NCBI RefSeq assembly: GCF_029867415.1
Contig: NW_026705227.1
Coordinates: forward strand, 913,001-977,000
Direction of reading: 5' to 3'
Length of the DNA: 64,000 nt
From: Vicia villosa
Taxonomy: Eukaryota > Streptophyta > Magnoliopsida > Fabales > Fabaceae
The number at the start of each line of letters is the position of its first letter. The first letter of the stretch is position 1. The position numbers and the translations under genes are program-made. The notes beneath the pieces are model-generated. The model searched no databases and was not told where the DNA came from. It worked only from the letters and a program-made list of their open reading frames with translations. Of this stretch, positions 17,032-64,000 are shown piece after piece.

Positions 17032-18206
17032 ACTCTTTACTTGGTCTTCTTCAATGTGGGCCACGTGCAAGTGATCATGTCTAGCTCCTTCGTGGGCTGG
17101 GCTTGCATCTTTGCATAATTGGGTCTTCTTTTGCACCCCTTTATTACTTCAACACCTCTCTTTCATCTTTTAATAATAAATAATAATGATTTTTGCTCCA
17201 TTTCTTCTTCTTTTCACAAATAGTCTCAATATGAACTCAAAACCTGAAACATCGCAAATACTCGCATAATATCATAATAAAACAATATAATTAAAAGAAA
17301 ATGCTAATAATACTTATGGATTTTAAGCTAAATATATGATATAAAATCGTGTTAACATTCACGGTTTAAGAAACAAAAGATAATGGCTCAAAGTATATTT
17401 GTACCCATCCCAATCTTCGTGATGTACTCGTGTAATGTGTATACTATTGTACTATGTTTCAATACCTGTATTAACCGTCTGAAGGGGATAATTATAGACT
17501 TATCTTGTTTGGATTGTTACATATTGAATATTTAAAATCATAGTATTTAAGTCAAAAAAAATTAAATGAGGTGGAATAAATTCATAAATTTCATTTCAAG
17601 GTAGATAACTAGCTGAATATTTTTAAATAATATTTGGATTAAAAAATCTTATTGAATGGAAAATAGAATAAAGTGTGGCAAGATGATAAATTTGAAAAAA
17701 AATAATATATAAAATTTACAATATTTAATAAAGGCCTATCAAGTGACTAGTTTAATTTAGTATGTACCTTTCATATAATAAACATCGTGTTACAGTCCTT
17801 TTATAAATTAATTTTCAAAGAAATTTAGAGCATTCAACTTGTGTGGTCTATATTTTATTTATATTCCACTAGTGTAGTCTATATTTTTCGTTCCCCTAAT
17901 ATTCTCTTCAAAATAACTTTAATTAAAATAATATGTACATATTAGTTCACAAAATAATAATTACTTGGTAAATTTTATTCACTATGGGACAAGCCTTAGT
18001 GATTTATTCAAAACATAATTGTGACAGGTAAATATACGCACTATAACGTTATATATATAATTAAAAGTAACAATTACCATCTCCAATCAATTTATCTCTC
18101 TTTTATTTGAATATAGTTTATTCTCTCTCTCACTCTCCTTAATTCAGAAATCACAAAATAAATTAGAAGATAAGTTGTCGAGTGAACGATAACTTAATGT
18201 TAAATA

Positions 18207-18256
18207 TGGTGGTGGTGTAAATTGGAACTCTCTAGTCTCAATCATGCAATGCAATG
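18207..18256 (-). pseudogene. Fossil CLE motif downstream of the stop codon
   Basis: Just past the stop of CLE gene 1 the minus-strand sequence still aligns with a CLE repeat. In frame it reads roughly IA, stop, LRLESPNLHHHH. It looks like a decayed additional 72-bp repeat, so the precursor was once longer at its C-terminus. The same relic follows the gene in every unit I compared. Confidence 0.6.
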
Positions 18257-18262
18257 ATTATT

Positions 18263-19126
18263 CTAAGGTTGAAAGGAATTCGGGTAGTTTGGATTATGAC
18301 CTCTTAGACTTAATTTTGCAGTGAGATGGACACTCGTTGGATGTAAGGAATTGTCGTGGTGTGGATTAGGACCTCCTGGACTCAATCTTGCAATTCCATG
18401 AACATTTCTTGTTTTCAAGAAATCAGGGTGGTGTGAATCTGGACCTCCTGGACTCAATCTTTCAATGCGATGAACATTCCCCGTTTGTAAGGAAACATGG
18501 TGGTGTGGATCTGGACCTTCTGGACTCAATCTTGCAATGTGATGAACATTCCTCGTTTGTAAGGAAAGATGGTGATGTGGATCGGGACCTCCTGGACTCA
18601 ATTTTGCAATGTGATCGACACTCGTTGGATTTAAGGAATTGTCATGGTGTGGATTAGGACCTCCTGGACTCAATCTTGCAATTTCACGAACATTTCTAGT
18701 TTGCAAGAAATCATGGTGGTGTGAATCTGGACCTCCTGGACTCAATCTTTCAATGTGATGAACATTCCCTGTTGGTAAGGAAACATGGTGGTGTGGATCT
18801 GGACCTTCTGGACTCAATCTTGCAATGTAATGAACATTCCTTGTTTGTAAGGAAAGATGGTGATGTGGATCGGGACCTCCTGCACTCAATTTTGCAATGT
18901 GATGATCACTTTTTGGCTGTAAGGAATTGTCGTGGTGTGGATTAGGTCCTTCTGGACTCAATCTTGCAATGCGATGAACACTCCTCGTTTGTAAGGAAAG
19001 TTGGTGATCAATATGATCCTTAATATTAATAAAGCGATGAGTTGCTTTGGAATTTCCCATCAACAATGCTAAAAGAGATACTTCGATAAGCATTATTGAA
19101 AAGAACATGTTTAGCAAATTTGCCAT
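18263..19126 (-). CDS. CLE: Multi-CLE peptide precursor, copy 1 (10 CLE motifs)
   Basis: An intronless gene for a 287-residue secreted prepropeptide. Residues 1-28 form a signal peptide (hydrophobic core 4-23, likely cut after SKA). Ten CLE motifs then start at residues 55, 79, 103 and so on every 24 residues to 271, joined by 12-residue linkers. Core motifs match the CLE dodecapeptide RLSPGGPDPHHH with Pro4, Gly6 and Pro7. CLE family peptides are cut out, hydroxylated on proline and sensed by leucine-rich-repeat receptor kinases. Variants repeat in the order A (...GPNPHHD), B (KLSPGGPDPHHH), C (RLSPEGPDPHHH), D (RLSPGGPDSHHH). Copy-specific changes are Ala4 in motif 2 and HHP at the end of motif 8. 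Motif 10 (KLSLRGHNPNYP) is degenerate. I chose Met at 19126, not the in-frame ATG at 19222, because it opens the signal peptide and lies about 80 bp after a TATA box. Confidence 0.9.
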   Translation of the reverse strand: MANLLNMFFSIMLIEVSLLALLMGNSKATHRFINIKDHIDHQLSLQTRSVHRIARLSPEGPNPHHDNSLQPKSDHHIAKLSAGGPDPHHHLSLQTRNVHYIARLSPEGPDPHHHVSLPTGNVHHIERLSPGGPDSHHHDFLQTRNVREIARLSPGGPNPHHDNSLNPTSVDHIAKLSPGGPDPHHHLSLQTRNVHHIARLSPEGPDPHHHVSLQTGNVHRIERLSPGGPDSHHPDFLKTRNVHGIARLSPGGPNPHHDNSLHPTSVHLTAKLSLRGHNPNYPNSFQP

Positions 19127-19206
19127 CGCTAAAATATTAAAGACTACAATGTTGATACACACAAACACACAAAATGTATTAGGAAAACATAATGAGAAAA
19201 TATAAA

Positions 19207-22461: not shown

Positions 22462-25400
22462 TGTACTCGTGTAATGTGTATACTATTGTACTATGTTTCA
22501 ATACCTCTATTAACCGTCTGAAGGGGATAATTATAGACTTATCTTGTTTGGATTGTTACATATTGAATATTTAAAATCATAGTATTTAAGTCAAAAAAAA
22601 TTAAATGACGTGGAATAAATTCATAAATTTCATTTCAAGGTAGATAGCTAGCTAAATATTTTTAAATAATATTTGGATTAAAAAATCTTATTGAATGGAA
22701 AATAGAATAAAGTGTGGCAAGATGATAAATTTGAAAAAAAATAATATATAAAATTTACAATATTTAATAAAGACCTATGAAGTGACTAGTTTAATTTAGT
22801 ATGTACCTTTCATATAATAAACATCGTGTTACAGTCCTTTTATGAATTAATTTTCAAAGAAATTTAGAGCATTCAACTTGTGTGGTCTATGTTTTATTTA
22901 TATTCCACTAGTGTAGTCTATATTTTGCGTTCCCCTAATATTCTCTTCAAAGTAACTTTAATTAAAATAATATGTACATATTAGTTCACAAAATAATAAT
23001 TACTTGGTAAATTTTATTCACTATGGGACAAGCCTTAGTGATTTATTCAAAACATAATTGTGACAGTTAAATATACGCACTATAAAGTTATATATATAAT
23101 TAAAAGTAACAATTACCATCTCCAATCAATTTATCTCTCTTTTACTTGAATATAGTTTATTCTCTCTCTCACTCTCCATAATTCAGAAATCACAAAATAC
23201 ATTAGAAGATAAGTTGTCGAGTGAACGATAACTTAATGTTAAATATGGTGGTGGTGTAAATTGGGACTCTCTAGTCTCAATCATGCAATGCAATGATTAT
23301 TCTAAGGTTGAAAGGAATTCGAGTAGTTTGGATTATGACCTCTTAGACTTAATTTTGCAGTGAGATGGACACTCGTTGGATGTAAGGAATTGTCGTGGTG
23401 TGGATTAGGACCTCCTGGACTCAATCTTGCAATTCCATGAACATTTCTAGTTTTCAAGAAATCATGGTGGTGTGAATCTGGACCTCCTGGACTCAATCTT
23501 TCAATGCGATGAACATTCCCCGTTTGTAAGGAAACATGGTGGTGTGGATCTGGACCTTCTGGACTCAATCTTGCAATGTGATGAACATTCCTCGTTTGTA
23601 AGGAAAGATGGTGATGTGGATCGGGATCTCCTGGACTCAATTTTGCAATGTGATCGACACTCGTTGGATTTAAGGAATTGTCATGGTGTGGATTAGGACC
23701 TCCTGGACTCAATCTTGCAATTTCATGAACATTTCTAGTTTGCAAGAAATCATGGTGGTGTGAATCTGGACCTCCTGGACTCAATCTTTCAATGTGATGA
23801 ACATTCCCCGTTGGTAAGGAAACATGGTGATGTGGATCTGGACCTTCTGGACTCAATCTTGCAATATGATGAACATTCCCCGTTTGTAAGGAAAGATAGT
23901 GATGTGGATCGGGACCTCCTGGACTCAATTTCGCAATGTGATGATCACTTTTTGGCTGTAAGGAATTGTCGTGGTGTGGATTAGGACCTCCTGGACTCAA
24001 TCTTGCAATTTCATGAACATTTCTAGTTTGCAAGAAATCATGGTGATGTGAATCTGGACCTCCTGGACTCAATCTTTCAATGTGATGAACATTCCCCGTT
24101 GGTAAGGAAACATGGTGGTGTGGATCTGGACCTTCTGGACTCAATCTTGCAATGTTATGAACATTCCTCGTTTGTAAGGAAAGATGGTGATGTGGATCGG
24201 GACCTCTTGGACTCAATTTTGCGATGTGATGATCACTTTTTGGCTGTAAGGAATTGTCGTGGTGTGGATTAGGTCCTTCTGGACTCAATCTTGCAATGCG
24301 ATGAACACTCCTCGTTTGTAAGGAAACTTGGTGATCAATATGATCCTTAATATCAATAAAGCGATGAGTTGCTTTGGAATTTCCCATCAACAATGCTAAA
24401 AGAGATACTTCGATAAGCATTATTGAAAAGAACATGTTTAGCAAATTTGCCATCGCTAAAATATTAAAGACTACAATGTTGATACACACAAACACACAAA
24501 ATGTGTTATGAAAACATAATGAGAAAATATAAATTATATATATGAGCAACAGTTTTTTTGTTTGAACGGCATGCTAATTGCAAACATTAATTTGAATGTC
24601 TATAACAAGTAATTTTTACTCAACAACTTAATTATTGTTTTGAAAATAAAACTATTACTTTAAAATAGAACTATTTGTTATGTATTTGGCAAAAAAATTA
24701 TTAAGTATGAGTAATAAATTACTTAATTTCTCAACAATCACACTATTGTTGGGAAAACCTTCTTATTCCAACAACAACAACTAGTTTTAGTGGTTGAAAT
24801 TTGATTTGTTTTTTTTAATTATTTTACTATATTTAAGAAAGAGTTGTATCAACAACAAATTTTGTTGCTGGTAATAAAATAATTTTGGAAAAATCATAAT
24901 ATATATAGATTGATAAACGATATATAAATTTTTTTTTTGAAATTTTCAATTTCAATCACCAGATGGGGCATTTCCTTATACTTTTGGAAAAATATATTAC
25001 AATTAATTAAATATAGTAAAATATATTAAAACTAACTCCTTTACTCTTTTTAATAAATATAGTTGTATATAAAATAAACTTACATCTTATGTTTGGTGAA
25101 CTATATGGACTAATTTTTTTGGCACTAAGTGTAAAAGAAACTTTAAATTCTAAAACCTAATTAGTTAAGATGGATTCATCTATTCTAAACAATTTAAATT
25201 CAATTTAGTTGTAGAGTTCTAAAGTTGCCCCTTCTCATTCAAAAATCCAGTGAGTTGTAGACAACCCGTTTCCCAAAATTACCTCTCGAAAGGTATAAAC
25301 ATCTTCTAATCCAAATGGCTTCTATCGTTAGCTCACTTTCTTAAAATAAATCTATGTAAGACTCCTCGAGTACATTTATTCCCAGAGATATATTCCTTTT

Positions 25401-27787: not shown

Positions 27788-30700
27788 TGTACTCGTGTAA
27801 TGTGTATACTATTGTACTATGTTTCAATACCCGTATTAACCGTCTGAAGGGGATAATTATAGACTTATCTTGTTTGGATTGCTACATATTGAATATTTAA
27901 AATCATAGTATTTAAGTCAAAAAAAATTAAATGACGTGGAATAAATTCATAAATTTCATTTCAAGGTAGATAACTAGCTGAATATTTTTAAATAATATTT
28001 GGATTAAAAAATCTTATTGAATGGAAAATAGAATAAAGTGTGGCAAGATGATAAATTTGAAAAAAAATAATATATAAAATTTACAATATTTAATAAAGGC
28101 CTATCAAGTGACTAGTTTAATTTAGTATGTACCTTTCATATAATAAACATCGTGTTACAGTCCTTTTATGAATTAATTTTCAAAGAAATTTAGAGCATTC
28201 AACTTGTGTGGTCTATGTTTTATTTATATTCCACTAGTGTAGTCTATATTTTTCGTTCCCCTAATATTCTCTTCAAAGTAACTTTAATTAAAATAATATG
28301 TACATATTAGTTCACAAAATAATAATTACTTGGTAAATTTTATTCACTATGGGACAAGCCTTAGTGATTTATTCAAAACATAATTGTGACAGGTAAATAT
28401 ACGCACTATAAAGTTATATATATAATTAAAAGTAACAATTACCATCTCCAATCTATTTATCTCTCTTTTACTTGAATATAGTTTATTCTCTCTCTCACTC
28501 TCCTTAATTCAGAAATCACAAAATACATTAGAAGATAAGTTGTCGAGTGAACGATAACTTAATGTTAAATATGGTGGTGGTGTAAATTGGGACTCTCTAG
28601 TCTCAATCATGCAATGCAATGATTATTCTAAGGTTGAAAGGAATTCGGGTAGTTTGGATTATGACCTCTTAGACTTAATTTTGCAGTGAGATGGACACTC
28701 GTTGGATGTAAGGAATTGTCGTGGTGTGGATTAGGACCTCCTGGACTCAATCTTGCAATTCCATGAACATTTCTAGTTTTCAAGAAATCATGGTGGTGTG
28801 AATCTGGACCTCCTGGACTCAATCTTTCAATGCGATGAACATTCCCGTTTGTAAGGAAACATGGTGGTGTGGATCTGGACCTTCTGGACTCAATCTTGCA
28901 ATGTGATGAACATTCCTCGTTTGTAAGGAAAGATGGTGATGTGGATCGGGACCTCCTGGACTCAATTTTGCAATGTGATCGACACTCGTTGGATTTAAGG
29001 AATTGTCATGGTGTGGATTAGGACCTCCTGGACTCAATCTTGCAATTTCATGAACATTTCTAGTTTGCAAGAAATCATGGTGGTGTGAATCTGGACCTCC
29101 TGGACTCAATCTTTCAATGTGATGAACATTCCCCGTTGGTAAGGAAACATGGTGGTGTGGATCTGGACCTTCTGGACTCAATCTTGCAATGTGATGAACA
29201 TTCCTCGTTTGTAAGGAAAGATGGTGATGTGGATCGGGACCTCTTGGACTCAATTTTGCAATGTGATGATCACTTTTTGGCTGTAAGGAATTGTCGTGGT
29301 GTGGATTAGGTCCTTCTGGACTCAATCTTGCAATGCGATGAACACTCCTCGTTTGTAAGGAAACTTGGTGATCAATATGATCCTTAATATCAATAAAGCG
29401 ATGAGTTGCTTTGGAATTTCCCATCAACAATGCTAAAAGAGATACTTCGATAAGCATTATTGAAAAGAACATGTTTAGCAAATTTGCCATCGCTAAAATA
29501 TTAAAGACTACAATGTTGATACACACAAACACACAAAATGTGTTAGGAAAACATAATGAGAAAATATAAATTATATATATGAGCAACAGTTTTTTTGTTT
29601 GAACGGCATGCTAATTGCAAACATTAATTTGAATGTCTATAACAAGTAATTTTTACTCAACAACTTAATTATTGTTTTGAAAATAAAACTATTACTTTAA
29701 AATAGAACTATTTGTTATGTATTTCGCAAAAAAATTATTAAGTATGAGTAATAAATTACTTAATTTCTCAACAATCACACTATTGTTGGGAAAACCTTCT
29801 TATTCCAACAACAACAACTAGTTTTAGTGGTTGAAATTTGATTTGTTTTTTTTAATTATTTTACTATATTTAAGAAAGAGTTGTATCAACAACAAATTTT
29901 GTTGCTGGTAATAAAATAATTTTGGAAAAATCATAATATATATAGATTGATAAACGATATATAAAAAAAAATTTTGAAATTTTCAATTTCAATCACCAGA
30001 TGGGGCATTTCCTTATACTTTTGGAAAAATATATTACAATTAATTAAATATAGTAAAATATATTAAAACTAACTCCTTTACTCTTTTTAATAAATATAGT
30101 TGTATATAAAATAAACTTACATCTTATGTTTGGTGAACTATATGGACTAATTTTTTTGGCACTAAGTGTAAAAGAAACTTTAAATTCTAAAACCTAATTA
30201 GTTAAGATGGATTCATCTATTCTAAACAATTTAAATTCAATTTAGTTGTAGAGTTCTAAAGTTGCCCCTTCTCATTCAAAAATCCAGTGAGTTGTAGACA
30301 ACCCGTTTCCCAAAATTACCTCTCGAAAGGTATAAACATCTTCTAATCCAAATGGCTTCTATCGTTAGCTCACTTTCTTAAAATAAATCTATGTAAGACT
30401 CCTCGAGTACATTTATTCCCAGAGATATATTCCTTTCCAAAGCTATCAACTCTTATGGTATATGTCTTTTTTATTTACCGCATTGGTAGTCCATGTATTT
30501 TGATCCCCTCATTCCTCTTAATATAAATTTTTATGACAAGCAAATATGGGATAGTTCATATAATAATAGATTACATGGAAAGTTATATTTACTACAGAGA
30601 GAATTGGTGATACTTTCAAAACGTAATTGTGACAAGTGAATATAAGAATTATCACTTTATATTTATTATTCAAAGTGTAATACCCCGAATAATATGCGTA

Positions 30701-33666: not shown

Positions 33667-34530
33667 CTAAGGTTGAAAGGAATTCGGGTAGTTTGGATTA
33701 TGACCTCTTAGACTTAATTTTGCAGTGAGATGGACACTCGTTGGATGTAAGGAATTGTCGTGGTGTGGATTAGGACCTCCTGGACTCAATCTTGCAATTC
33801 CATGAACGTTTCTAGTTTTCAAGAAATCATGGTGGTGTGAATCTGGACCTCCTGGACTCAATCTTTCAATGCGATGAACATTCCCCGTTTGTAAGGAAAC
33901 ATGGTGGTGTGGATCTGGACCTTCTGGACTCAATCTTGCAATGTGATGAACATTCCTCGTTTGTAAGGAAAGATGGTGATGTGGATCGGGACCTCCTGGA
34001 CTCAATTTTGCAACATGATCGACACTCGTTGGATTTAAGGAATTGTCATGGTGTGGATTAGGACCTCCTGGACTCAATCTTGCAATTTCATGAACATTTC
34101 TAGTTTGCAAGAAATCATGGTGGTGTGAATCTGGACCTCCTGGACTCAATCTTTCAATGTGATGAACATTCCCCGTTGGTAAGGAAACATGGTGGTGTGG
34201 ATCTGGACCTTCTAGACTCAATCTTGCAATGTGATGAACATTCCTCGTTTGTAAGGAAAGATGGTGATGTGGATCGGGACCTCCTGGACTCAATTTTGCA
34301 ATGTGATGATCACTTTTTGGCTGTAAGGAATTGTCGTGGTGTGGATTAGGTCCTTCTGGACTCAATCTTGCAGTGCGATGAACACTCCTCGTTTGTAAGG
34401 AAACTTGGTGATCAATATGATCCTTAATATCAATAAAGCGATGAGTTGCTTTGGAATTTCCCATCAACAATGCTAAAAGAGATACTTCGATAAGCATTAT
34501 TGAAAAGAACTTGTTTAGCAAATTTGCCAT
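33667..34530 (-). CDS. CLE: Multi-CLE peptide precursor, copy 4 (10 CLE motifs)
   Basis: Intact 287-residue precursor with the usual signal peptide and ten motifs. It differs from copy 1 by Lys instead of Met in the signal region (LLNKFFS), Thr before motif 1, loss of Pro4 in motif 3 (RLSLEGPDPHHH) and Val before motif 6. Pro4 is normally a hydroxylation site in CLE peptides, so the motif 3 product may be altered. It is almost identical to copy 5; the one difference I see is Gly versus Arg in the linker before motif 8. Its upstream region is normal for 505 bp and is then cut by the Tekay element at 35041, so distal promoter elements are displaced by 8.6 kb while the TATA box is retained. Confidence 0.9.
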   Translation of the reverse strand: MANLLNKFFSIMLIEVSLLALLMGNSKATHRFIDIKDHIDHQVSLQTRSVHRTARLSPEGPNPHHDNSLQPKSDHHIAKLSPGGPDPHHHLSLQTRNVHHIARLSLEGPDPHHHVSLPTGNVHHIERLSPGGPDSHHHDFLQTRNVHEIARLSPGGPNPHHDNSLNPTSVDHVAKLSPGGPDPHHHLSLQTRNVHHIARLSPEGPDPHHHVSLQTGNVHRIERLSPGGPDSHHHDFLKTRNVHGIARLSPGGPNPHHDNSLHPTSVHLTAKLSLRGHNPNYPNSFQP

Positions 34531-35040: not shown

Positions 35041-37048
35041 TGTAATACCCCGTATTAATTAAATGCTCTAATGTATTAACTGACGCTGAGGTTTTATCAA
35101 TTGATACGTTAGAGATACTTTTGGACATTAAGTTAGTAGTGTAACTTAAGATATTTTCTTATATCCTTTCCTTTTTGCTTTTCTTCTTCATTCTACATCA
35201 AAAAGAGAAAGATAGAGAGAAGAAGTAGAGAGAAGGAAGAGCAAGAGGAGAAAGAGGAAAAGCTTGGATCTTCGTCGTTTCTCCGCCGAATCAACTCATC
35301 TTCGACATCAACGACTCTTAATCGAGGTGGGTTCTAGTTAGAAACTTATAGCTTTGATTGTGGATGAGAAATCATAAGTTTTGTTTTAGGGTTTTGTATA
35401 GAGGAAATCTAGGTTTTGGACAAGTTCATCAATGTTCATGAGCAAAGTGATTATAATCCATAAATAGATCAACTATAGTTTGTATCCATGCTTTAATCTG
35501 ATCTGGAACAGGTTTAGATGGTTTAGATGGTTTGAACCATGGAAGGTTGTGAGTGAAACAGAACTGAGAGCTGAGTTCTCGCGCGCTTCGCGGCGCGAAC
35601 GGGGCTGCGCGGCGCGAACGGGGCTGCGCGGCGCGAACTATGCAGGTTTTTATGGGTTTTGCTTCTGCCTTCAGTACGCGGCGCGAACAGTTTGGAAATC
35701 TTTAGAGTTTTGCTACTGCCAGAGGTTGGCGGCGCGTAGATTAGTTAGCGGCGCGAACATTGTTGGAAATTATGATGGTTTGCTTCTGCCAGAGGGTTCG
35801 CGGCGCGACCTAGTTGTTGCGCGGCGCGAACTGAAGCTTCCTTAACCAAATTTTCTTAACTTAATGAAAATTGTTTCAATCATAACTTTTGAACCGTAAC
35901 TCTGTTTTAACCACCGTTCGAAGCAGTAATAGGCTAGGAGTGTGTACTTTATAGTGGTGTAGATTTTGGAACCATGAGGACGTTATGCTCTTGGTATGAT
36001 GCTTATGTACTCTATAATTGTTGTTGAGTTCTATTGCAGGTGGATTGGTAATACCTTGTTTATGTGTTTATATCAAGAGGGTTGAATAACTACATTGTTA
36101 TGTGAATAAAGAACAAGTGAGGAAAACTAGGAATTGTTAGGTTGTGTAGCTTAACAAAGAAACCTAGGATGAGACATTATATGGAACATACGTGTTGGAA
36201 TCTTATGAGGAAAGGCTAACAGGCCTAGTGGTTTGCGGAAGCGATCACCATTGTTGATGTATTAATCGGAACCGTTGTATTTTCTTTATTTCTTTATTTT
36301 TCCTTTGAATGCTAACAGGCATTCTCCGTGCAGAGAGGCACAATAATCTTGGCAGGTTTGATTCCCGCTGTTGTGTACGAATGGAACCTACGGGTAGAGA
36401 CTTGTGATGGTGTACGGGCCATGTGAAGTGACGATTCATGGGGAAAGGCTCATGAGTCCGAATCCATGTCGTATGTCAAGATTTTTCCAAAGGATCCATG
36501 ACTCGTGCCACCTCCTAGACGTAGAAGGGGACGGGAATATGGGGATGCCTTGGTATTGGTTTCCGATTAGTAATCTCGTGTTGAGTTGTTGAACTCTAAG
36601 TATGATTCCATATAATGTTAGTGTGAGAACTCAAGGTCTAGTTCTTCATGACTTGAGACTTATAGGTTAGAACCTTGTAAAGCCGAGAGGATCCATAGGA
36701 TAGGGAACTCACTGGGATTTTATATCTCACCCCATTATATATTGATTTCAGGTACTACAGGTTCCGCGAAGGGTAAGGAGAAAGAAGTTTGATTTCCTTA
36801 TTCCTTGTACTTATTTTGGATATGGCGAAGCTTCCGTTGTGGAGTTCCTTTGAGATCATTGTTTGATCTAGTTCTTAGTATTTTATTTTGAACATCTTGT
36901 ATGTATTATGCCATTGTGTAGAACTTTTGTATTTGGCATTAATATGTATAATGTGTTGACTAGGAACTTATTGGTATTTCAGTACCAAATACTTGGATTC
37001 ATGTATACTTATATGATTTGATGCATGTATTTATATATGGGTGTTACA
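35041..37048 (+). mobile_element. Tekay-like 5' LTR (2008 bp)
   Basis: Begins TGTAATACCCCG and ends GGGTGTTACA, giving an imperfect terminal inverted repeat. Compared with the 3' LTR I find three substitutions (35503 C/T, 35802 G/A, 36936 G/A) and a pair of compensating 19-bp indels in a GC-rich repeat. A 121-aa ORF inside it (35480-35845) comes from the GC-rich repeats and is not a gene. Confidence 0.95.
35592..35838 (+). repeat. GGCGCG repeat cluster in the 5' LTR
   Basis: At least seven copies of GCGGCGCG(A/T), usually GCGGCGCGAAC, lie in an otherwise AT-rich LTR. Three copies near 35592-35638 have an exact 19-bp period; the 3' LTR has only two there but an extra one near 42276. Confidence 0.9.
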
Positions 37049-37050
37049 AT

Positions 37051-37062
37051 TGGTATCAGAGC
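37051..37062 (+). other. Tekay-like primer-binding site (initiator tRNA-Met)
   Basis: TGGTATCAGAGC lies two bases after the LTR end, the canonical complement of the 3' end of plant initiator tRNA-Met. Confidence 0.93.
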
Positions 37063-37205
37063 AGGTCGTATCCTCGACCTAGCCATGAGATATTATAAGT
37101 GTTTCTTTCTGTCCAAGATGTGTTGTGTTCCCATGAGTTTTGTTGTGTTATGACTATGGTATTGAGCCTGATCAACTTAATCCCATTTTGATAACCTCCA
37201 GGAAC

Positions 37206-40200
37206 ATGGCGGACGGACGCAGGACTCGCGGTCGACCCCCCACAAGACCTCCACAAGTGAATACACCGGAAGGCGGTGCGAATGTTCCATGGCCCCAGTT
37301 CATGCAACAGATGCAACAGCAACATAATCAGTTCATGCTGCAGATGATGCAACAGATGAATGGCGGTCATAATGCTCCAGTGGTTGTGCCCGAAGCTGTA
37401 GGTGGAACTTATAGGGATTTCATTCGCATGAATCCTCCGGAGTTTCATGGTGGATTAGATCCTATAAAGGCGCATGAGTGGGTGGCCAATGTAGAGGGAA
37501 TCTTTGAGATCGTGCATTGTGGTGAAGAGGACAAGGTGGTGTTTGCTTCTCATTCGCTGAAAGGTCCAGCTATGAGGTGGTGGAAGGGTGCTTCTGCTTT
37601 GATGACTACTCAGGGAGTACCTAAGGAATGGGAGAATTTCAAGACCACTTTTATGGAGAATTACTTTCCTAGTTCACTGAGGACTAAGAAGGAATTGGAG
37701 TTCCAGCAGTTAAGGCAGGACAATATGTCAGTAGCTACTTATGCTGAGAAGTTTGAAATTTTGGCTGCTTACTCTAGGCAGGCCGCGTATGCTCCTGATG
37801 AGGGTTGGAAGGTGGACCAGTTTCTGTTCGGTTTAAGGGCTGATATCTCACATAGTGTGTCCCAGAGGGAGTTCACTACTTATACGGAGTTGTTGCGACA
37901 ATGTTATGTGGCTGAGACTAGTTTGAAGAAAGTTCAAGCTGAGGAAGATTTGAAGAAGAAGAATCAACATGAAAGAGGAAGGCCAAGCCAACAATTTCGA
38001 CCTAGGCCACAAGCTTTCAAAGGAAAGCAAGTGCAAGGTCCTCGGTCTAGTGCACCTCCGGTGTGTCGTAGTTGTGGTAAGAATCACCTTGGAAGATGTG
38101 CCTTTGAAGGGGTGAAATGTTTCCATTGTCATCAAGAAGGGCATATGGCTAGGAATTGTCCTCAGAATAGGAATCAAGTTCAAGGAAGGGGTACTGGTAG
38201 AGTTTATACCTTGGATGCTAAGAAGACCAAGAGTGATAACTCTTTGATTGCGGGTACGTGTTTCATTAATGGACATTCTTGTTTTGTTCTATTTGATTGT
38301 GGAGCAACACACTCTTTTGTGTCATTACAATGTATGAAGCGACTTGGGTTGCAAGCTACTCCTTTATTTCCTCCTATGGCGGTTACTACTGCTATGGATG
38401 AGATGGTAGAGACACCGTTGGTGTGTGAAAATTGTGTGTTATCTGTGGGTGGTAGGAATTTCCAGATCGATCTTGTTTGCTTACCACTTAAGAAGGTAGA
38501 TGTTGTATTGGGAATGGATTGGCTTTCTGCTAATTCGGTGTTCATTGGGTGTGAAGAGAAGTTAATCATTATTCCATCTGAAGAGGCTACTCCGAAGGAT
38601 GTGTTGACTACTATACTAGAAGGTACGGTAGGTATGATTAATTTCTTGTTTGAGAAAGAGAAGTCTGTTCTGTTGGTTCTCACTAAGGAGACGGGTGACA
38701 AGTTAGAGGTTTCACAAATTGCTGTCGTTAGAGAATTTCCTGATGTTTTTCCCGAGGATGTCACTTCTCTTCCTCCGGAAAGGGAAGTGGAATTCTCTAT
38801 TGACCTGATACCGGGAACGGCTCCTATATCCGTTTCTCCGTATCGGATGGCACCACTTGAATTAAGAGAATTGAAGGGGCAATTGGAAGAACTAATGGCT
38901 AAACATTTTGCGCGACCTAGTGTCTCACCGTGGGGAGCTCCAGTGTTGTTAGTAAAGAAGAAGGATGGTGGGATGAGACTATGTATTGATTACCGTCGGT
39001 TGAATAAGGCCACCATCAAGAACAAATACCCTTTGCCTAGGATAAACGACTTGTTAGATCAAGTGAAAGGAGCCTGTGTGTTCTCGAAGATTGATTTGCG
39101 GTCAGGTTATCACCAAATCCGTGTGAAGAGCTCAGATGTGCCAAAGACTGCATTTAGAACCCGTTATGGTCATTACGAATTCTTGGTGATGCCTTTCGGT
39201 GTTACGAATGCTCCAGCTGTTTTCATGGATTATATGAATCGGTTATTTCAGCCTTACTTAGATCAATTTGTGGTAGTCTTTATTGATGACATTCTTATTT
39301 ATTCTCGCACTCCACAAGAGCACGAAGGACACCTGAGGATTGTTCTGTCGGTATTGCAAGAAAATCAATTGTTTGCTAAGTTAAGCAAGTGTGAGTTTTG
39401 GATGACGGAGGTAAGATTTCTTGGTCATGTTATATCTCAAGGAGGTGTGGCAGTGGACCCGACAAAAATCGAAGCGGTAATTAATTGGGAGAGACCGAGC
39501 AATGTCTCAGAAGTCCGAAGTTTCTTGGGCTTAGCCGGCTACTACAGAAGATTTATAAAAGGGTTTTCTCAATTGGCTTTACCAATGACTAGACTTTCTC
39601 GGAAGGAGTGTCCTTATGATTGGGATTCGGGGTGTGAACAGAGTTTCATGGGCTTGAAGGAAAGATTGACGACTGCTCCTGTTTTGATCGTTCCTGACCC
39701 AAATAAGTCCTATGAAGTATTTTGCGATGCTTCCAAGAAAGGATTAGGAGGGGTTTTGATGCAGGATGGTCAGGTGGTAGCATACACATCCCGACAGTTA
39801 AAGGTTCACGAAGAGAATTATCCCACTCATGATTTAGAATTGGCTGCGGTTGTTTTTACCCTGAAGGTGTGGCGTCATTACTTGTATGGAGTTCATTTTG
39901 AAATGTTCAGCGACCACAAGAGTTTAAAGTACCTATTCGACCAGAAGGAGTTGAATATGCGTCAGAGGCGGTGGATGGAATACTTAAAGGATTATGATTT
40001 TGACTTGAAGTATCATCCAGGCAAAGCAAATAAAGTGGCGGATGCTTTGAGTCGGAAGGTGTTAAAGAGGGCCGAATTAATGATGTTAGAGTATGCATTA
40101 TTGGAGAAATTTCGAGATCTCAATCTTCAATTTGTTTGGACCCAAAATGGAGTATTGATGGGAAACTTGAATGTTAATTCTACTTTGAGAAACGACATCC

Positions 40201-41594: not shown

Positions 41595-41623
41595 TTCTTA
41601 AATTCGAGGACGAATTTCTATTT

Positions 41624-41636
41624 AAGTGGGGGAGGA
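41624..41636 (+). other. Polypurine tract
   Basis: AAGTGGGGGAGGA directly precedes the 3' LTR, the expected plus-strand primer; 29 bp separate it from the gag-pol stop codon. Confidence 0.93.
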
Positions 41637-46481: not shown

Positions 46482-49400
46482 TGTACTCGTGTAATGTGTA
46501 TACTATTGTACTATGTTTCAATACCCGTATTAACCGTCTGAAGGGGATAATTATAGACTTATCTTGTTTGGATTGCTACATATTGAATATTTAAAATCAT
46601 AGTATTTAAGTCAAAAAAAATTAAATGACGTGGAATAAATTCATAAATTTCATTTCAAGGTAGATAACTAGCTGAATATTTTTAAATAATATTTGGATTG
46701 AAAAATCTTATTGAATGGAAAATAGAATAAAGTGTGGCAAGATGATAAATTTGAAAAAAACTAATATATAAAATTTACAATATTTAATAAAGGCCTATCA
46801 AGTGACTAGTTTAATTTAGTATGTACCTTTCATATAATAAACATCGTGTTAAAGTCCTTTTATGAATTAATTTTCAAATAAATTTAGAGCATTCAACTTG
46901 TGTGGTCTATGTTTTATTTATATTCCACTAGTGTAGTCTATATTTTTCGTTCCCCTAATATTCTCTTCAAAGTAACTTTAATTAAAATAATATGTACATA
47001 TTAGTTCACAAAATAATAATTACTTGGTAAATTTTATTCACTATGGGACAAGCCTTAGTGATTTATTCAAAACATAATTGTGACAGGTAAATATACGCAC
47101 TATAAAGTTATATATATAATTAAAAGTAACAATTACCATCTCCAATCTATTTATCTCTCTTTTATATGAATATAGTTTATTCTCTCTCTCACTCTACTTA
47201 ATTCAGAAATCACAAAATAGATTAGAAGGTAAGTTGTCGAGTGAACGATAACTTAATGTTAAATATGGTGGTGGTGTAAATTGGGACTCTCTAGTCTCAA
47301 TCATGCAATGCAATGATTATTCTAAGGTTGAAAGGAATTCGGGTAGTTTGGATTATGACCTCTTAGACTTAATTTTGCAGTGAGATGGACACTCGTTGGA
47401 TGTAAGGAATTGTCGTGGTGTGGATTAGGACCTCCTGGACTCAATCTTGCAATTCCATGAACGTTTCTAGTTTTCAAGAAATCATGGTGGTGTGAATCTG
47501 GACCTCCTGGACTCAATCTTTCAATGCGATGAACATTCCTCGTTTGTAAGGAAACATGGTGGTGTGGATCTGGACCTTCTGGACTCAATCTTGCAATGTG
47601 ATGAACATTCCTCGTTTGTAAGGAAAGATGGTGATGTGGATCGGGACCTCCTGGACTCAATTTTGCAACATGATCGACACTCGTTGGATTTAAGGAATTG
47701 TCATGGTGTGGATTAGGACCTCCTGGACTCAATCTTGCAATTTCATGAACATTTCTAGTTTGCAAGAAATCATGGTGGTGTGAATCTGGACCTCCTGGAC
47801 TCAATCTTTCAATGTGATGAACATTCCCCGTTGGTAAGGAAACATGGTGGTGTGGATCTGGACCTTCTAGACTCAATCTTGCAATGTGATGAACATTCCT
47901 CGTTTGTAAGGAAAGATGGTGATGTGGATCGGGACCTCCTGGACTCAATTTTGCAATGTGATGATCACTTTTTGGCTGTAAGGAATTGTCGTGGTGTGGA
48001 TTAGGTCCTTCTGGACTCAATCTTGCAGTGCGATGAACACTCCTCGTTTGTAAGGAAACTTGGTGATCAATATGATCCTTAATATCAATAAAGCGATGAG
48101 TTGCTTTGGAATTTCCCATCAACAATGCTAAAAGAGATACTTCGATAAGCATTATTGAAAAGAACTTGTTTAGCAAATTTGCCATCGCTAAAATATTAAA
48201 GACTACAATGTTGATACACACAAACACACAAAATGTGTTAGAAAAACATAATGAGAAAATATAAATTATATATATGAGCAACAGTTTTTTTGTTTGAACG
48301 GCATGCTAATTGCAAACATTAATTTGAATGTCTATAACAAGTAATTTTTACTCAACAACTTAATTATTGTTTTGAAAATAAAACTATTACTTTAAAATAG
48401 AACTATTTGTTATGTATTTCGCAAAAAAAATTATTAAGTATGAGTAATAAATTACTTAATTTCTCAACAATCACACTATTGTTGGGAAAACCTTCTTATT
48501 CCTTCAACAACAACAACTAGTTTTAGTGGTTGAAATTTGATTTGTTTTTTTTAATTATTTTACTATATTTAAGAAAGAGTTGTATCAACAACAAATTTTG
48601 TTGCTGGTAATAAAATAATTTTGGAAAAATCATAATATATATAGATTGATAAACGATATATAAAAAAAAAAATTGAAATTTTCAATTTCAATCACCAGAT
48701 GGGGCATTTCCTTATACTTTTGGAAAAATATATTACAATTAATTAAATATAGTAAAATATATTAAAACTAACTCCTTTACTCTTTTTAATAAATATAGTT
48801 GTATATAAAATAAACTTACATCTTATGTTTGGTGAACTATATGGACTAATTTTTTTGGCACTAAGTGTAAAAGAAACTTTAAATTCTAAAACCTAATTAG
48901 TTAAGATGGATTCATCTATTCTAAACAATTTAAATTCAATTTAGTTGTAGAGTTCTAAAGTTGCCCCTTCTCATTCAAAAATCCAGTGAGTTGTAGACAA
49001 CCCGTTTCCCAAAATTACCTCTCGAAAGGTATAAACATCTTCTAATCCAAATGGCTTCTATCGTTAGCTCACTTTCTTAAAATAAATCTATGTAAGACTC
49101 CTCGAGTACATTTATTCCCAGAGATATATTCCTTTTCAAAGCTATCAACTCTTATGGTATATGTCTTTTTTATTTACCGCATTGGTAGTCCATGTATTTT
49201 GATCCCCTAATTCCTCTTAATATAAATTTTTATGACAAGCAAATATGGTATAGTTCATATAATAATAGATTACATGGAAAGTTATATTTACTACAGAGAG
49301 AATTGGTGATACTTTCAAAACGTAATTGTGACAAGTGAATATAAGAATTATCACTTTATATTTATTATTCAAAGTGTAATACCCCGAATAATATGCGTAT

Positions 49401-51525: not shown

Positions 51526-54500
51526 TGTACTCGTGTAATGTGTATACTATTGTACTATGTTTCAATACCCGTATTAACCGTCTGAAGGGGATAATTATAG
51601 ACTTATCTTGTTTGGATTGCTACATATTGAATATTTAAAATCATAGTATTTAAGTCAAAAAAATTAAATGACGTGGAATAAATTCATAAATTTCATTTCA
51701 AGGTAGATAACTAGCTGAATATTTTTAAATAATATTTGGATTGAAAAATCTTATTGAATGGAAAATAGAATAAAGTGTGGCAAGATGATAAATTTGAAAA
51801 AAACTAATATATAAAATTTACAATATTTAATAAAGGCCTATCAAGTGAATAGTTTAATTTAGTATGTACCTTTCATATAATAAACATCGTGTTAAAGTCC
51901 TTATATGAATTAATTTTCAAATAAATTTAGAGCATTCAACTTGTGTGGTCTATGTTTTATTTATATTCCACTAGTGTAGTCTATATTTTTCGTTCCCCTA
52001 ATATTCTCTTCAAAGTAACTTTAATTAAAATAATATGTACATATTAGTTCACAAAATAATAATTACATGGTAAATTTTATTCACTATGGGACAAGCCTTA
52101 GTGATTTATTCAAAACATAATTGTGACAGGTAAATATACGCACTATAAAGTTATATATATAATTAAAAGTAAGAATTACCATCTCCAATCTATTTATCTC
52201 TCTTTTATATGAATATAGTTTATTCTCTCTCTCACTCTACTTAATTCAGAAATCACAAAATAGATTAGAAGATAAGTTGTCGAGTGAACGATAACTTAAT
52301 GTTAAATATGGTGGTGGTGTAAATTGGGACTCTCTAGTCTCAATCATGCAATGCAATGATTATTCTAAGGTTGAAAGGAATTCGGGTAGTTTGGATTATG
52401 ACCTCTTAGACTTAATTTTGCAGTGAGATGGACACTCGTTGGATGTAAGGAATTGTCGTGGTGTGGATTAGGACCTCCTGGACTCAATCTTGCAATTCCA
52501 TGAACGTTTCTAGTTTTCAAGAAATCATGGTGGTGTGAATCTGGACCTCCTGGACTCAATCTTTCAATGCGATGAACATTCCCCGTTTGTAAGGAAACAT
52601 GGTGGTGTGGATCTGGACCTTCTGGACTCAATCTTGCAATGTGATGAACATTCCTCGTTTGTAAGGAAAGATGGTGATGTGGATCGGGACCTCCTGGACT
52701 CAATTTTGCAATGTGATCGACACTCGTTGGATTTAAGGAATTGTCATGGTGTGGATTAGGACCTCCTGGACTCAATCTTGCAATTTCATGAACATTTCTA
52801 GTTTGCAAGAAATCATGGTGGTGTGAATCTGGACCTCCTGGACTCAATCTTTCAATGTGATGAACATTCCCCGTTGGTAAGGAAACATGGTGGTGTGGAT
52901 CTGGACCTTCTGGACTCAATCTTGCAATGTGATGAACATTCCTCGTTTGTAAGGAAAGATGGTGATGTGGATCGGGACCTCCTGGACTCAATTTTGCAAT
53001 GTGATGATCACTTTTTGGCTGTAAGGAATTGTCGTGGTGTGGATTAGGTCCTTCTGGACTCAATCTTGCAATGCGATGAACACTCCTCGTTTGTAAGGAA
53101 ACTTGGTGATCAATATGATCCTTAATATCAATAAAGCGATGAGTTGCTTTGGAATTTCCCATCAACAATGCTAAAAGAGATACTTCGATAAGCATTATTG
53201 AAAAGAACATGTTTAGCAAATTTGCCATCGCTAAAATATTAAAGACTACAATGTTGATACACACAAACACACAAAATGTATTAGGAAAACATAATGAGAA
53301 AATATAAATTATATATATGAGCAACAGTTTTTTTGTTTGAACGGCATGCTAATTGCAAACATTAATTTGAATGTCTATAACAAGTAATTTTTACTCAACA
53401 ACTTAATTATTGTTTTGAAAATAAAACTATTACTTTAAAATAGAACTATTTGTTATGTATTTGGCAAAAAATTATTAAGTATGAGTAATAAATTACTTAA
53501 TTTCTCAACAATCACACTATTGTTGGGAAAACCTTCTTATTCAACAACAACAACTAGTTTTAGTGGTTGAAATTTGATTTGTTTTTTTTAATTATTTTAC
53601 TATATTTAAGAAAGAGTTGTATCAACAACAAATTTTGTTGCTGGTAATAAAATAATTTTGGAAAAATCATAATATATATAGATTGATAAACGATATATAA
53701 AAAAATATTTTGAAATTTTCAATTTCAATCACCAGATGGGGCATTTCCTTATACTTTTGGAAAAATATATTACAATTAATTAAATATAGTAAAATATATT
53801 AAAACTAACTCCTTTACTCTTTTTAATAAATATAGTTGTATATAAAATAAACTTACATCTTATGTTTGGTGAACTATATGGACTAATTTTTTTGGCACTA
53901 AGTGTAAAAGAAACTTTAAATTCTAAAACCTAATTAGTTAAGATGGATTCATCTATTCTAAACAATTTAAATTCAATTTAGTTGTAGAGTTCTCAAGTTG
54001 CCCCTTCTCATTCAAAAATCCAGTGAGTTGTAGACAACCCGTTTCCCAAAATTACCTCTCGAAAGGTATAAACATCTTCTAATCCAAATGGCTTCTATCG
54101 TTAGCTCACTTTCTTAAAATAAATCTATGTAAGACTCCTCGAGTACATTTATTCCCAGAGATATATTCCTTTTCAAAGCTATCAACTCTTATGGTATATG
54201 TCTTTTTTATTTACCGCATTGGTAGTCCATGTATTTTGATCCCCTCATTCCTCTTAATATAAATTTTTATGACAAGCAAATATGGGATAGTTCATATAAT
54301 AATAGATTACATGGAAAGTTATATTTACTACAGAGAGAATTGGTGATACTTTCAAAACGTAATTGTGACAAGTGAATATAAGAATTATCACTTTATATTT
54401 ATTATTCAAAGTGTAATACCCCGAATAATATGCGTATAGAATGGTATTATTCGACATTTTATATCTGGTACTGAGTACAACCAAAAGTGTCTAGATGACA

Positions 54501-56562: not shown

Positions 56563-59500
56563 TGTACTCGTGTAATGTGTATACTATTGTACTATGTTTC
56601 AATACCCGTATTAACCGTCTGAAGGGGATAATTATAGACTTATCTTGTTTGGATTGCTACATATTGAATATTTAAAATCATAGTATTTAAGTCAAAAAAA
56701 ATTAAATGACGTGGAATAAATTCATAAATTTCATTTCAAGGTAGATAACTAGCTGAATATTTTTAAATAATATTTGGATTAAAAAATCTTATTGAATGGA
56801 AAATAGAATAAAGTGTGGCAAGATGATAAATTTGAAAAAAATAATATATAAAATTTACAATATTTAATAAAGGCCTATCAAGTGACTAGTTTAATTTAGT
56901 ATGTACCTTTCATATAATAAACATCGTGTTACAGTCCTTTTATGAATTAATTTTCAAAGAAATTTAGAGCATTCAACTTGTGTGGTCTATGTTTTATTTA
57001 TATTCCACTAGTGTAGTCTATATTTTTCGTTCCCCTAATATTCTCTTCAAAGTAACTTTAATTAAAATAATATGTACATATTAGTTCACAAAATAATAAT
57101 TACTTGGTAAATTTTATTCACTATGGGACAAGCCTTAGTGATTTATTCAAAACATAATTGTGACAGGTAAATATACGCACTATAAAGTTATATATATAAT
57201 TAAAAGTAACAATTACCATCTCCAATCTATTTATCTCTCTTTTATATGAATATAGTTTATTCTCTCTCTCACTCTACTTAATTCAGAAATCACAAAATAC
57301 ATTAGAAGATAAGTTGTCGAGTGAACGATAACTTAATGTTAAATATGGTGGTGGTGTAAATTGGGACTCTCTAGTCTCAATCATGCAATGCAATGATTAT
57401 TCTAAGGTTGAAAGGAATTCGGGTAGTTTGGATTATGACCTCTTAGACTTAATTTTGCAGTGAGATGGACACTCGTTGGATGTAAGGAATTGTCGTGGTG
57501 TGGATTAGGACCTCCTGGACTCAATCTTGCAATTCCATGAACGTTTCTAGTTTTCAAGAAATCATGGTGGTGTGAATCTGGACCTCCTGGACTCAATCTT
57601 TCAATGCGATGAACATTCCCCGTTTGTAAGGAAACATGGTGGTGTGGATCTGGACCTTCTGGACTCAATCTTGCAATGTGATGAACATTCCTCGTTTGTA
57701 AGGAAAGATGGTGATGTGGATCGGGACCTCCTGGACTCAATTTTGCAATGTGATGATCACTTTTTGGCTGTAAGGAATTGTCGTGGTGTGGATTAGGACC
57801 TCCTGGACTCAATCTTGCAATTTCATGAACATTTCTAGTTTGCAAGAAATCATGGTGGTGTGAATCTGGACCTCCTGGACTCAATCTTTCAATGTGATGA
57901 ACATTCCCCGTTGGTAAGGAAACATGGTGGTGTGGATCTGGACCTTCTGGACTCAATCTTGCAATGTGATGAACATTCCTCGTTTGTAAGGAAAGATGGT
58001 GATGTGGATCGGGACCTCTTGGACTCAATTTTGCAATGTGATGATCACTTTTTGGCTGTAAGGAATTGTCGTGGTGTGGATTAGGTCCTTCTGGACTCAA
58101 TCTTGCAATGCGATGAACACTCCTCGTTTGTAAGGAAACTTGGTGATCAATATGATCCTTAATATCAATAAAGCGATGAGTTGCTTTGGAATTTCCCATC
58201 AACAATGCTAAAAGAGATACTTCGATAAGCATTATTGAAAAGAACATGTTTAGCAAATTTGCCATCGCTAAAATATTAAAGACTACAATGTTGATACACA
58301 CAAACACACAAAATGTATTAGGAAAACATAATGAGAAAATATAAATTATATATATGAGCAACAGTTTTTTTGTTTGAACGGCATGCTAATTGCAAACATT
58401 AATTTGAATGTCTATAACAAGTAATTTTTACTCAACAACTTAATTATTGTTTTGAAAATAAAACTATTACTTTAAAATAGAACTATTTGTTATGTATTTG
58501 GCAAAAAATTATTAAGTATGAGTAATAAATTACTTAATTTCTCAACAATCACACTATTGTTGGGAAAACCTTCTTATTCAACAACAACAACTAGTTTTAG
58601 TGGTTGAAATTTGATTTGTTTTTTTTAATTATTTTACTATATTTAAGAAAGAGTTGTATCAACAACAAATTTTGTTGCTGGTAATAAAATAATTTTGGAA
58701 AAATCATAATATATATAGATTGATAAACGATATATAAAAAAATATTTTGAAATTTTCAATTTCAATCACCATATGGGGCATTTCCTTATACTTTTGGAAA
58801 AATATATTACAATTAATTAAATATAGTAAAATATATTAAAACTAACTCCTTTACTCTTTTTAATAAATATAGTTGTATATAAAATAAACTTACATCTTAT
58901 GTTTGGTGAACTATATGGACTAATTTTTTTGGCACTAAGTGTAAAAGAAACTTTAAATTCTAAAACCTAATTAGTTAAGATGGATTCATCTATTCTAAAC
59001 AATTTAAATTCAATTTAGTTGTAGAGTTCTCAAGTTGCCCCTTCTCATTCAAAAATCCAGTGAGTTGTAGACAACCCGTTTCCCAAAATTACCTCTCGAA
59101 AGGTATAAACATCTTCTAATCCAAATGGCTTCTATCGTTAGCTCACTTTCTTAAAATAAATCTATGTAAGACTCCTCGAGTACATTTATTCCCAGAGATA
59201 TATTCCTTTCCAAAGCTATCAACTCTTATGGTATATGTCTTTTTTATTTACCGCATTGGTAGTCCATGTATTTTGATCCCCTCATTCCTCTTAATATAAA
59301 TTTTTATGACAAGCAAATATGGGATAGTTCATATAATAATAGATTACATGGAAAGTTATATTTACTACAGAGAGAATTGGTGATACTTTCAAAACGTAAT
59401 TGTGACAAGTGAATATAAGAATTATCACTTTATATTTATTATTCAAAGTGTAATACCCCGAATAATATGCGTATAGAATGGTATTATTCGACATTTTATA

Positions 59501-61599: not shown

Positions 61600-64000
61600 T
61601 GTACTCGTGTAATGTGTATACTATTGTACTATGTTTCAATACCCGTATTAACCGTCTGAAGGGGATAATTATAGACTTATCTTGTTTGGATTGTTACATA
61701 TTGAATATTTAAAATCATAGTATTTAAGTCAAAAAAAATTAAATGACGTGGAATAAATTCATAAATTTCATTTCAAGGTAGATAACTAGCTGAATATTTT
61801 TAAATAATATTTGGATTAAAAAATCTTATTGAATGGAAAATAGAATAAAGTGTGGCAAGATGATAAATTTGAAAAAAACTATAATATATAAAATTTACAA
61901 TATTTAATAAAGACCTATCAAGTGACTAGTTTAATTTAGTATGTACCTTTCATATAATAAACATCGTGTTACAGTCCTTTTATGAATTAATTTTCAAAGA
62001 AATTTAGAGCATTCAACTTGTGTGGTCTATGTTTTATTTATATTCCACTAGTGTAGTCTATATTTTTCGTTCCCCTAATATTCTCTTCAAAGTAACTTTA
62101 ATTAAAATAATATGTACATATTAGTTCACAAAATAATAATTACTTGGTAAATTTTATTCACTATGGGACAAGCCTTAGTGATTTATTCAAAACATAATTG
62201 TGACAGGTAAATATACGCACTATAAAGTTATATATATAATTAAAAGTAACAATTACCATCTCCAATCTATTTATCTCTCTTTTATATGAATATAGTTTAT
62301 TCTCTCTCTCACTCTACTTAATTCAGAAATCACAAAATACATTAGAAGATAAGTTGTCGAGTGAACGATAACTTAATGTTAAATATGGTGGTGGTGTAAA
62401 TTGGGACTCTCTAGTCTCAATCATGCAATGCAATGATTATTCTAAGGTTGAAAGGAATTCGGGTAGTTTGGATTATGACCTCTTAGACTTAATTTTGCAG
62501 TGAGATGGACACTCGTTGGATGTAAGGAATTGTCGTGGTGTGGATTAGGACCTCCTGGACTCAATCTTGCAATTCCATGAACATTTCTAGTTTTCAAGAA
62601 ATCATGGTGGTGTGAATCTGGACCTCCTGGACTCAATCTTTCAATGCGATGAACATTCCCCGTTTGTAAGGAAACATGGTGGTGTGGATCTGGACCTTCT
62701 GGACTCAATCTTGCAATGTGATGAACATTCCTCGTTTGTAAGGAAAGATGGTGATGTGGATCGGGACCTCCTGGACTCAATTTTGCAATGTGATCGACTC
62801 GTTGGATTTAAGGAATTGTCTGGTGTGGATTAGGACCTCCTGGACTAAGGAATTGTCATGGTGGTGGTGTGGATTAGGACCTCCTGGACTCAATCTTGCA
62901 ATTTCATGAACATTTGCTAGTTTGCAAGAAATCATGGTGGTGTGAATCTGGACCTCCTGGACTCAATCTTTCAATGTGATGAACATTCCCCGTTGGTAAG
63001 GAAACATGGTGGTGTGGATCTGGACCTTCTGGACTCAATCTTGCAATGTGATGAACATTCCTCGTTTGTAAGGAAAGATGGTGATGTGGATCGGGACCTC
63101 TTGGACTCAATTTTGCAATGTGATGATCACTTTTTGGCTGTAAGGAATTGTCGTGGTGTGGATTAGGTCCTTCTGGACTCAATCTTGCAATGCGATGAAC
63201 ACTCCTCGTTTGTAAGGAAACTTGGTGATCAATATGATCCTTAATATCAATAAAGCGATGAGTTGCTTTGGAATTTCCCATCAACAATGCTAAAAGAGAT
63301 ACTTCGATAAGCATTATTGAAAAGAACATGTTTAGCAAATTTGCCATCGCTAAAATATTAAAGACTACAATGTTGATACACACAAACACACAAAATGTAT
63401 TAGGAAAACATAATGAGAAAATATAAATTATATATATGAGCAACAGTTTTTTTGTTTGAACGGCATGCTAATTGCAAACATTAATTTGAATGTCTATAAC
63501 AAGTAATTTTTACTCAACAACTTAATTATTGTTTTGAAAATAAAACTATTACTTTAAAATAGAACTATTTGTTATGTATTTGGCAAAAAATTATTAAGTA
63601 TGAGTAATAAATTACTTAATTTCTCAACAATCACACTATTGTTGGGAAAACCTTCTTATTCCAACAACAACTAGTTTTAGTGGTTGAAATTTGAATTGTT
63701 TTTTTAAATTATTTTACTATATTTAAGAAAGAGTTGTATCAACAACAAATTTTGTTGCTGGTAATAAAATAATTTTGGAAAAATCATAATACATATAGAT
63801 TGATAAACGATATATAAAAAAATATTTTGAAATTTTCAATTTCAATCACCATATGGGGCATTTCCTTATACTTTTGGAAAAATATATTACAATTAATTAA
63901 ATATAGTAAAATATATTAAAACTAACTCCTTTACTCTTTTTAATAAATATAGTTGTATATAAAATAAACTTACATCTTATGTTTGGTGAACTATATGGAC
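61600..64000 (-). repeat. CLE array unit 8 (partial, runs off window)
   Basis: The first 2401 bp of another unit, including the damaged CLE copy 8 and the start of its upstream spacer (63444-64000). Sequence agrees with the other units to the last base, so the array continues beyond 64000. Confidence 0.93.
62442..63347 (-). pseudogene. CLE: Multi-CLE precursor, copy 8, disrupted after motif 4
   Basis: The 5' part is normal: signal peptide and four complete motifs (A B C D, with Arg5 in motif 2). An extra G near 62915 then shifts the frame and a stop follows at 62904, giving a 147-residue product ending in TSKCS. Between about 62790 and 62920 there are several more changes against the intact copies: loss of AC in GATCGACACTCG, loss of an A near 62820, and a partial duplication of the AAGGAATTGTC...TGGACT block. 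Downstream the frame is open again with five motifs (62442-62780). The short product still holds four apparently normal CLE peptides. Confidence 0.8.

Follow-up and report, generated by a model that had tools for sequence, protein, structure and literature searches.

A tandem array of genes for multi-CLE preproproteins in Vicia villosa, probably encoding secreted ligands at a multiplied dose

CLE precursors usually carry one motif, and it is a standing question why in some plants a single precursor holds many CLE peptides; what, then, is a locus in which genes for such precursors are themselves repeated head to tail? In the window, i.e. the whole stretch of 64,000 nucleotides of Vicia villosa DNA that was analysed (C304:913001-977000), the alignment of one 5,037-base unit to its own contig placed eight head-to-tail units of approximately 5 kb, with starts at 17423, 22462, 27788, 32827, 46482, 51526, 56563 and 61600, and thereby reproduced exactly all eight unit boundaries claimed by a first-pass annotation. 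The pieces in the window are approximately 97–100% identical with this unit. The minus strand of every unit holds one long frame, the next longest ATG frame in the single unit that was checked being of 67 residues, and the window shows tandem periodicities of 72 and 288 bases. These data confirm the observation of a tandem array of multi-CLE genes, the features of which are collected in Table 1. The array had also been claimed to exceed the window, and it does continue to the end of C304 at 1,004,150.

Table 1. Multi-CLE genes, array and inserted element in the window (motifs are those of the first open frame of each gene)
Feature	Position	Strand	Description
Tandem array	17423..64000	.	Seven full units and a partial eighth, ~5.04 kb; self-alignment of one unit
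Gene 1	18263..19126	-	Intact, 287 aa, 10 motifs, the final one degenerate
Gene 2	23302..24453	-	Intact, 383 aa, 14 motifs, the final one degenerate; one extra four-repeat block
Gene 3	28819..29490	-	Frameshift after 223 aa; 7 motifs ahead of the break
Gene 4	33667..34530	-	Intact, 287 aa, 10 motifs
Ty3/gypsy LTR retrotransposon	35041..43644	+	Within unit 4, outside the gene; target duplication AATCA
Gene 5	47322..48185	-	Intact, 287 aa, 10 motifs
Gene 6	52365..53228	-	Intact, 287 aa, 10 motifs; TATATATAA 89 bases upstream of the ATG
Gene 7	57402..58265	-	Intact, 287 aa, 10 motifs
Gene 8	62904..63347	-	Broken after 147 aa; 4 motifs ahead of the break

The wide spacing between the starts at 32827 and 46482 corresponds to one unit that is interrupted by a Ty3/gypsy element of 8.6 kb, which has 2.0-kb LTRs of 98.0% identity and a 5-base target duplication. 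The element looks young, with a gag-pol frame of 1484 residues open throughout. We considered and rejected the multi-CLE gene as cargo of a retrotransposon, as the element is found in a single unit of the window and has a target duplication of its own. To the left of the array, the stretch 12001-14000 is a dispersed repeat with 88 matches across the genome and was unusable as an anchor. Three adjacent tandem arrays, with units of 70, 96 and 64 bases, lie at 13123-14264.

Six of the eight genes in the window reach a common stop (five at 287 aa and one at 383 aa), the other two being frameshifted. Their motifs in first open frames sum to 75, in agreement with the earlier figure of about 75, although six of these are the degenerate last motifs: in all six intact genes the final motif reads KLSLRGHNPNY, which leaves 69 good motifs. 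The accompanying statement that each gene carries 10–14 motifs is correct for six of the eight, but fails for the two frameshifted genes, which have seven and four. Gene 8 has a second open piece with further motifs at 62442-62807, and at its break (62807-62904) approximately 100 bases are scrambled, with short repeat pieces in altered frames, reflecting either recombination or an assembly error.

The multi-CLE frame starts with MANLLNMFFSIMLIEVSLLALL. By hydropathy, its N-terminus resembles a signal peptide, being strongly hydrophobic over approximately the first 22 residues and hydrophilic afterwards, the 11-residue maximum being 2.46 within the first 23 residues and the values negative past residue 22. 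The repeats are of exactly 24 residues, made up of a CLE dodecapeptide and a spacer (a spacing of 24 in nine of nine cases in the consensus gene), with nine good repeats in the 287-aa copies and thirteen in the longest. Four peptide variants, RLSP(G/E)GPNPHHD, KLSPGGPDPHHH, RLSPEGPDPHHH and RLSPGGPDSHHH, are repeated in a constant four-step order, and dodecapeptide positions 2, 3, 4, 6, 7, 10 and 11 are invariant over the nine good repeats of the consensus gene. The array gene thus departs from the typical CLE form, a single motif at or near the C-terminus, in having nine good motifs per 287-aa copy. Precursors of 383, 287, 239 and 191 aa were found, i.e. lengths differing in steps of 96 or 48, and as the motif number changes by whole repeats the reading frame is kept.

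Read from its sequence, the locus is in our view probably a plant multi-CLE preproprotein gene that has been amplified in tandem, the source of secreted ligands in a multiplied dose. The gene was multiplied head to tail together with approximately 4 kb of its surroundings, and unequal crossing-over would have acted at both levels, on the motifs inside the gene and on the units in the array. The precursor would be secreted and then cut within the spacers, its conserved prolines would be modified, and the peptides would be perceived in the manner of AtCLE1-7 or the legume nodulation-type CLE peptides, presumably by receptors of the CLV1/BAM type. One transcript would yield about nine ligands, and the array would multiply the ligand dose, probably in roots, with the dose scaling with copy number. 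If the genes are expressed, the extreme dosage proposed in the first-pass annotation may follow. Redundancy would permit single copies or motifs to decay while the locus still codes.

The number of copies was examined by a DNA search of the genome (1,888 contigs and 2,034,964,285 bases), which gave 47 matches, fragments and overlapping pieces included. Copies of the array were found beyond C304 on C364, C992 and the chromosome-scale C2, i.e. on four contigs in all, bearing out the claim that the true copy number is higher than that in the window. We counted 37 gene starts (C304, 14; C2, five; C364, 15; C992, three), which is a lower bound, since C304 ends in the array, C2 is gapped, and C2 and C992 were partly covered. 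The common stop is reached by 28 of the 37 copies (11, three, 11 and three on C304, C2, C364 and C992 respectively), with 24 of these coding for 287 aa, two for 383 and one each for 239 and 191. By a loose pattern these intact copies hold 275 motifs (C304, 113; C2, 29; C364, 104; C992, 29), of which 27 are the degenerate last motif. Among the nine non-intact copies, five are frameshifted, two have a nonsense codon at an identical site, one lacks the stop and runs on for seven residues, and foreign sequence interrupts the last.

The left flank of the array matches C364:710001-720467 in five collinear pieces (443 to 3,212 bases, 95.5–98.3% identity), and the arrays of C304 and C364 begin at an identical point beside this common flank, which suggests that the two contigs represent alternative haplotypes at a single locus. 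Over 13.5 kb, C2 is collinear with the far end of C304 (99.2% identity). On its left flank only scattered pieces of C364 were matched, and on its right side there was no match, so that the grouping of C2 with C304 is based on the 13.5-kb match and on clustering rather than on unique flanks. Clustering of 36 of the 37 copies over 930 bases put C304 with C2 and most of C364 with C992, and three C364 copies were nearest to C304, two of which adjoin the common flank. We interpret the grouping as a pair of haplotypes that may have been homogenized separately in their interiors, and infer that C2 and C992 are part of the same locus as C304 and C364. The gene starts would then number 19 (C304 plus C2) and 18 (C364 plus C992) per presumed haplotype, and because a sum over contigs mixes the two, a naive genome-wide count is approximately twice the haploid number. 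A 4.5-kb unit subtype, which lacks unit positions 4020-4564 and has itself been amplified, was also seen at C304:984971-1000638 and C2:167492873-167507120.

Selection was assessed on the 24 intact 287-aa copies (22 of them distinct), with frames pre-selected as intact and the 13 other copies excluded, an omission that biases towards constraint on stops and frame and not on N/S itself. These copies show 24 synonymous and 55 nonsynonymous variants. Against a neutral ratio of 3.85, derived from the mutation spectrum of the flanks, the observed N/S is 0.59 of neutral (p = 0.037), and by part it is 0.48 for the N-terminal region (p = 0.23), 0.69 for the CLE motifs (p = 0.43) and 0.64 for the spacers (p = 0.24). 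Equal-rate counting gave 0.44, 0.86 and 0.62 respectively. The N/S test proposed in the first-pass annotation thus has a divided outcome: the ratio is below one and barely significant for the whole gene, but not significant for the CLE motifs alone, which in recent copies have 19 nonsynonymous and six synonymous variants. Pairwise diversity is 0.012 in the coding region; three flanks of 500 bases, from which 1/24, 4/23 and 1/24 rows respectively were dropped, gave 0.017, 0.024 and 0.021. Small indels number four in 864 coding bases (28 of 37 copies given), and seven in 500 (31 of 37 copies used) and 14 in 500 (24 given) in two flanks. Outside simple runs the contrast is small, with three in 800 coding bases compared with three in 367 and seven in 372 flanking bases. 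The upstream 500-base flank gave 38 indels and was set aside, a badly aligned copy having probably raised this count. When the nine good repeats within the consensus gene are set against one another, a comparison older than that between copies, dN/dS is 0.26 for the CLE motif, 0.48 for the CLE core and 0.78 for the spacers. Together these values indicate that the CLE motif was maintained in the past, the constraint being clearer between repeats than between copies, and that recent copies are under weak constraint, a state that redundancy and slow decay alike would give.

It is in this light that the strongest alternative has to be weighed, namely a real array that is passive, in which a multi-CLE gene that formerly functioned is caught in a self-amplifying tandem repeat, with most copies silent and decaying and few or none that still matter. 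Recent constraint is weak and close to neutral in the CLE motifs, nine of the 37 copies are broken or altered, transposons have inserted inside the array, and the copies are homogenized by contig group as a satellite would be, all of which such an origin would explain. However, 28 of the 37 frames are intact, the overall N/S is under neutral, the first 432 coding bases contain no frame-breaking small indel in 36 copies, and a TATA-like TATATATAA lies within 200 bases upstream of the gene in all 37. On balance we regard a passive array as somewhat unlikely, and an amplified gene that still codes remains the reading we prefer.

A different objection is that heterozygosity misled the assembly, and that the array or a large share of its copies is an artefact. 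Vvill1.0 was built from HiFi reads of a V. villosa genome with 3.1% heterozygosity, and is reported to have unplaced haplotigs and approximately one-third of its bases unplaced (PMC10659084). C304 terminates inside the array, the array of C2 ends exactly at a run of 100 N, some of the copies on C2 show no difference across 930 bases, and gene 8 is scrambled at its break. Against this, the copies differ in point changes, in motif number, in the 4.5-kb subtype and in insertions restricted to single units, and the arrays of C304 and C364 share their starting point beside a common flank. In addition, duplicated haplotypes raise the total but cannot create an array. We consider an artefact of this kind very improbable, and continue with the array as a real, amplified locus.

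That the repeats encode CLE peptides was examined with a matrix of 44 distinct dodecapeptides from poplar and tomato, as given in PMC4776436 and PMC9670457. It was run over 58,197 stop-free 12-mers from the six frames of the window at a threshold of 6 bits. All 77 of the 12-mers above 6 bits belong to the array and to its minus strand; 76 of them score approximately 20–39 bits and one 12.0, compared with 28–43 for the 44 source peptides, and the degenerate last motif is absent from these matches. Three of the four main variants are one residue off poplar PtCLE48 (RLSPGGPDPHHH). Sequence comparison found in the array peptides a core of the RLSPGGPDP type (the AtCLE1-7 or nodulation type); the RLSPGGPDP core is carried by AtCLE1-4. 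A protein search with one gene as query gave four relatives among 7,997 candidates scored, and one with a three-sequence alignment gave 14 among 7,992, i.e. one protein of Trifolium subterraneum, six others that show CLE features of a plant-like kind and seven cyst-nematode proteins named CLE. The array gene has its N-terminus and repeat type in common with the T. subterraneum protein and the other plant-like ones; with residues 1-80 alone as query, no relative was found among the six candidates scored. Pfam, run on two gene copies, returned nothing above its cut-off and only a weak chance match below it (Stannin, E 0.14 and 0.28), which makes it neutral on CLE identity.

Besides the array, the genome contains at least two further multi-CLE genes. 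One lies at C7:100376901-100378400, where a plus-strand frame (122-1453) of 443 residues has ten exact copies of REVPSGPNPLHN and one variant, mostly in 26-residue steps, and the other at C6:130694101-130695000, where a plus-strand frame (71-658) contains the RLTPSGPNEKHN-type motif three times at intervals of 24 residues. On C121 lies a frame of 445 residues that resembles the C7 gene and is perhaps its other haplotype, and on C55 a 195-residue frame similar to the C6 gene. Further, weaker matches fell on C121, C55, C264, C3, C28, C7 and C1715. Chance frames in a satellite were rejected as the source of the motifs, all 77 matrix matches being confined to the array. The wider notion of a coding-looking satellite with no hormone function and a coincidental likeness to CLE motifs, to which the 72- and 288-base periodicity and the sub-threshold Pfam result would conform, is scarcely credible beside these matches, the occurrence of a related N-terminus and related repeats among other plant proteins, the further multi-CLE genes of this genome with their different CLE peptides, and the lower rate at which amino acids change in the CLE half of each repeat.

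Multi-CLE precursors as such are established, as the first-pass annotation had stated for some legumes and rice. Legume examples include MtCLE14 with seven motifs (PMC5570945 and PMC4526924), LjCLE32 with eight and LjCLE33 with nine (PMC5570945), and soybean GmCLE37a/b with six (PMC4526924). In rice, wheat and Medicago, two to six motifs are described, and an amplification of peptide or signal was proposed in 2008 (PMC2254619). The legume repeats are of constant length, 24–35 aa (PMC5570945), as are those of the array gene with their spacing of 24. MtCLE14 of Medicago truncatula, which can be compared by description only, resembles the array gene in being an intronless legume gene, coding for 221 aa with seven CLE motifs regularly repeated and several of them identical, but it is listed as one gene rather than an array (PMC5570945 and PMC4526924). 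In Lotus japonicus, LjCLE32, LjCLE33, LjCLE46 and LjCLE47 have seven to nine motifs per precursor, as here, and LjCLE46, LjCLE47 and LjCLE33 are no more than approximately 10 kb apart, which makes them the closest precedent for a cluster. That cluster, as described, consists of three genes at spacings of 2.6 and 6.7 kb with >50% similarity, and not of near-identical head-to-tail units (PMC5570945). GmCLE37a/b and the rice and wheat genes have fewer motifs, and the passages describing them mention no array (PMC4526924 and PMC2254619). The proteins named as cyst nematode CLEs have sequence in common with the query, at best 40% identity over 46% of its length, but are animal genes acting on plants. 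The nearest named plant match, T. subterraneum TSUD_324710, has a related N-terminus and repeats of a ARLSPAGPDPHHH-type motif, with fewer motifs than the array gene followed by a gag domain in one annotated protein. It is named for the gag domain only, and the annotated model may be a fusion in which a CLE gene is concealed.

The claim that no array of such genes had been described stands in so far as we found none in the open-access literature, but has to be qualified by the small Lotus cluster already in print (PMC5570945). Clustering as such is, given those three genes, not new, and it is the scale that is new here. As far as we searched, the novelty lies in the multiplication of a known precursor type into arrays of 18–19 gene starts per presumed haplotype.

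A more specific form of our reading can be put forward tentatively, as a possibility and not as an expectation: a dosage locus of approximately 20 polyprotein genes per haplotype, each giving about nine ligands of four kinds, with numbers varying between haplotypes. A locus multiplied at two levels, in motifs and in genes, whose numbers differ between presumed haplotypes makes the amplification idea testable, the question being how ligand output and, for example, nodule number relate to copy number. Gene prediction in Vvill1.0 followed soft-masking against a de novo repeat library (PMC10659084), and the array may exemplify a class of hormone genes hidden by repeat masking. If the dosage locus were real, a signal in nodulation, mycorrhiza or root nutrition would be a quantitative trait, evolving fast through unequal crossing-over.
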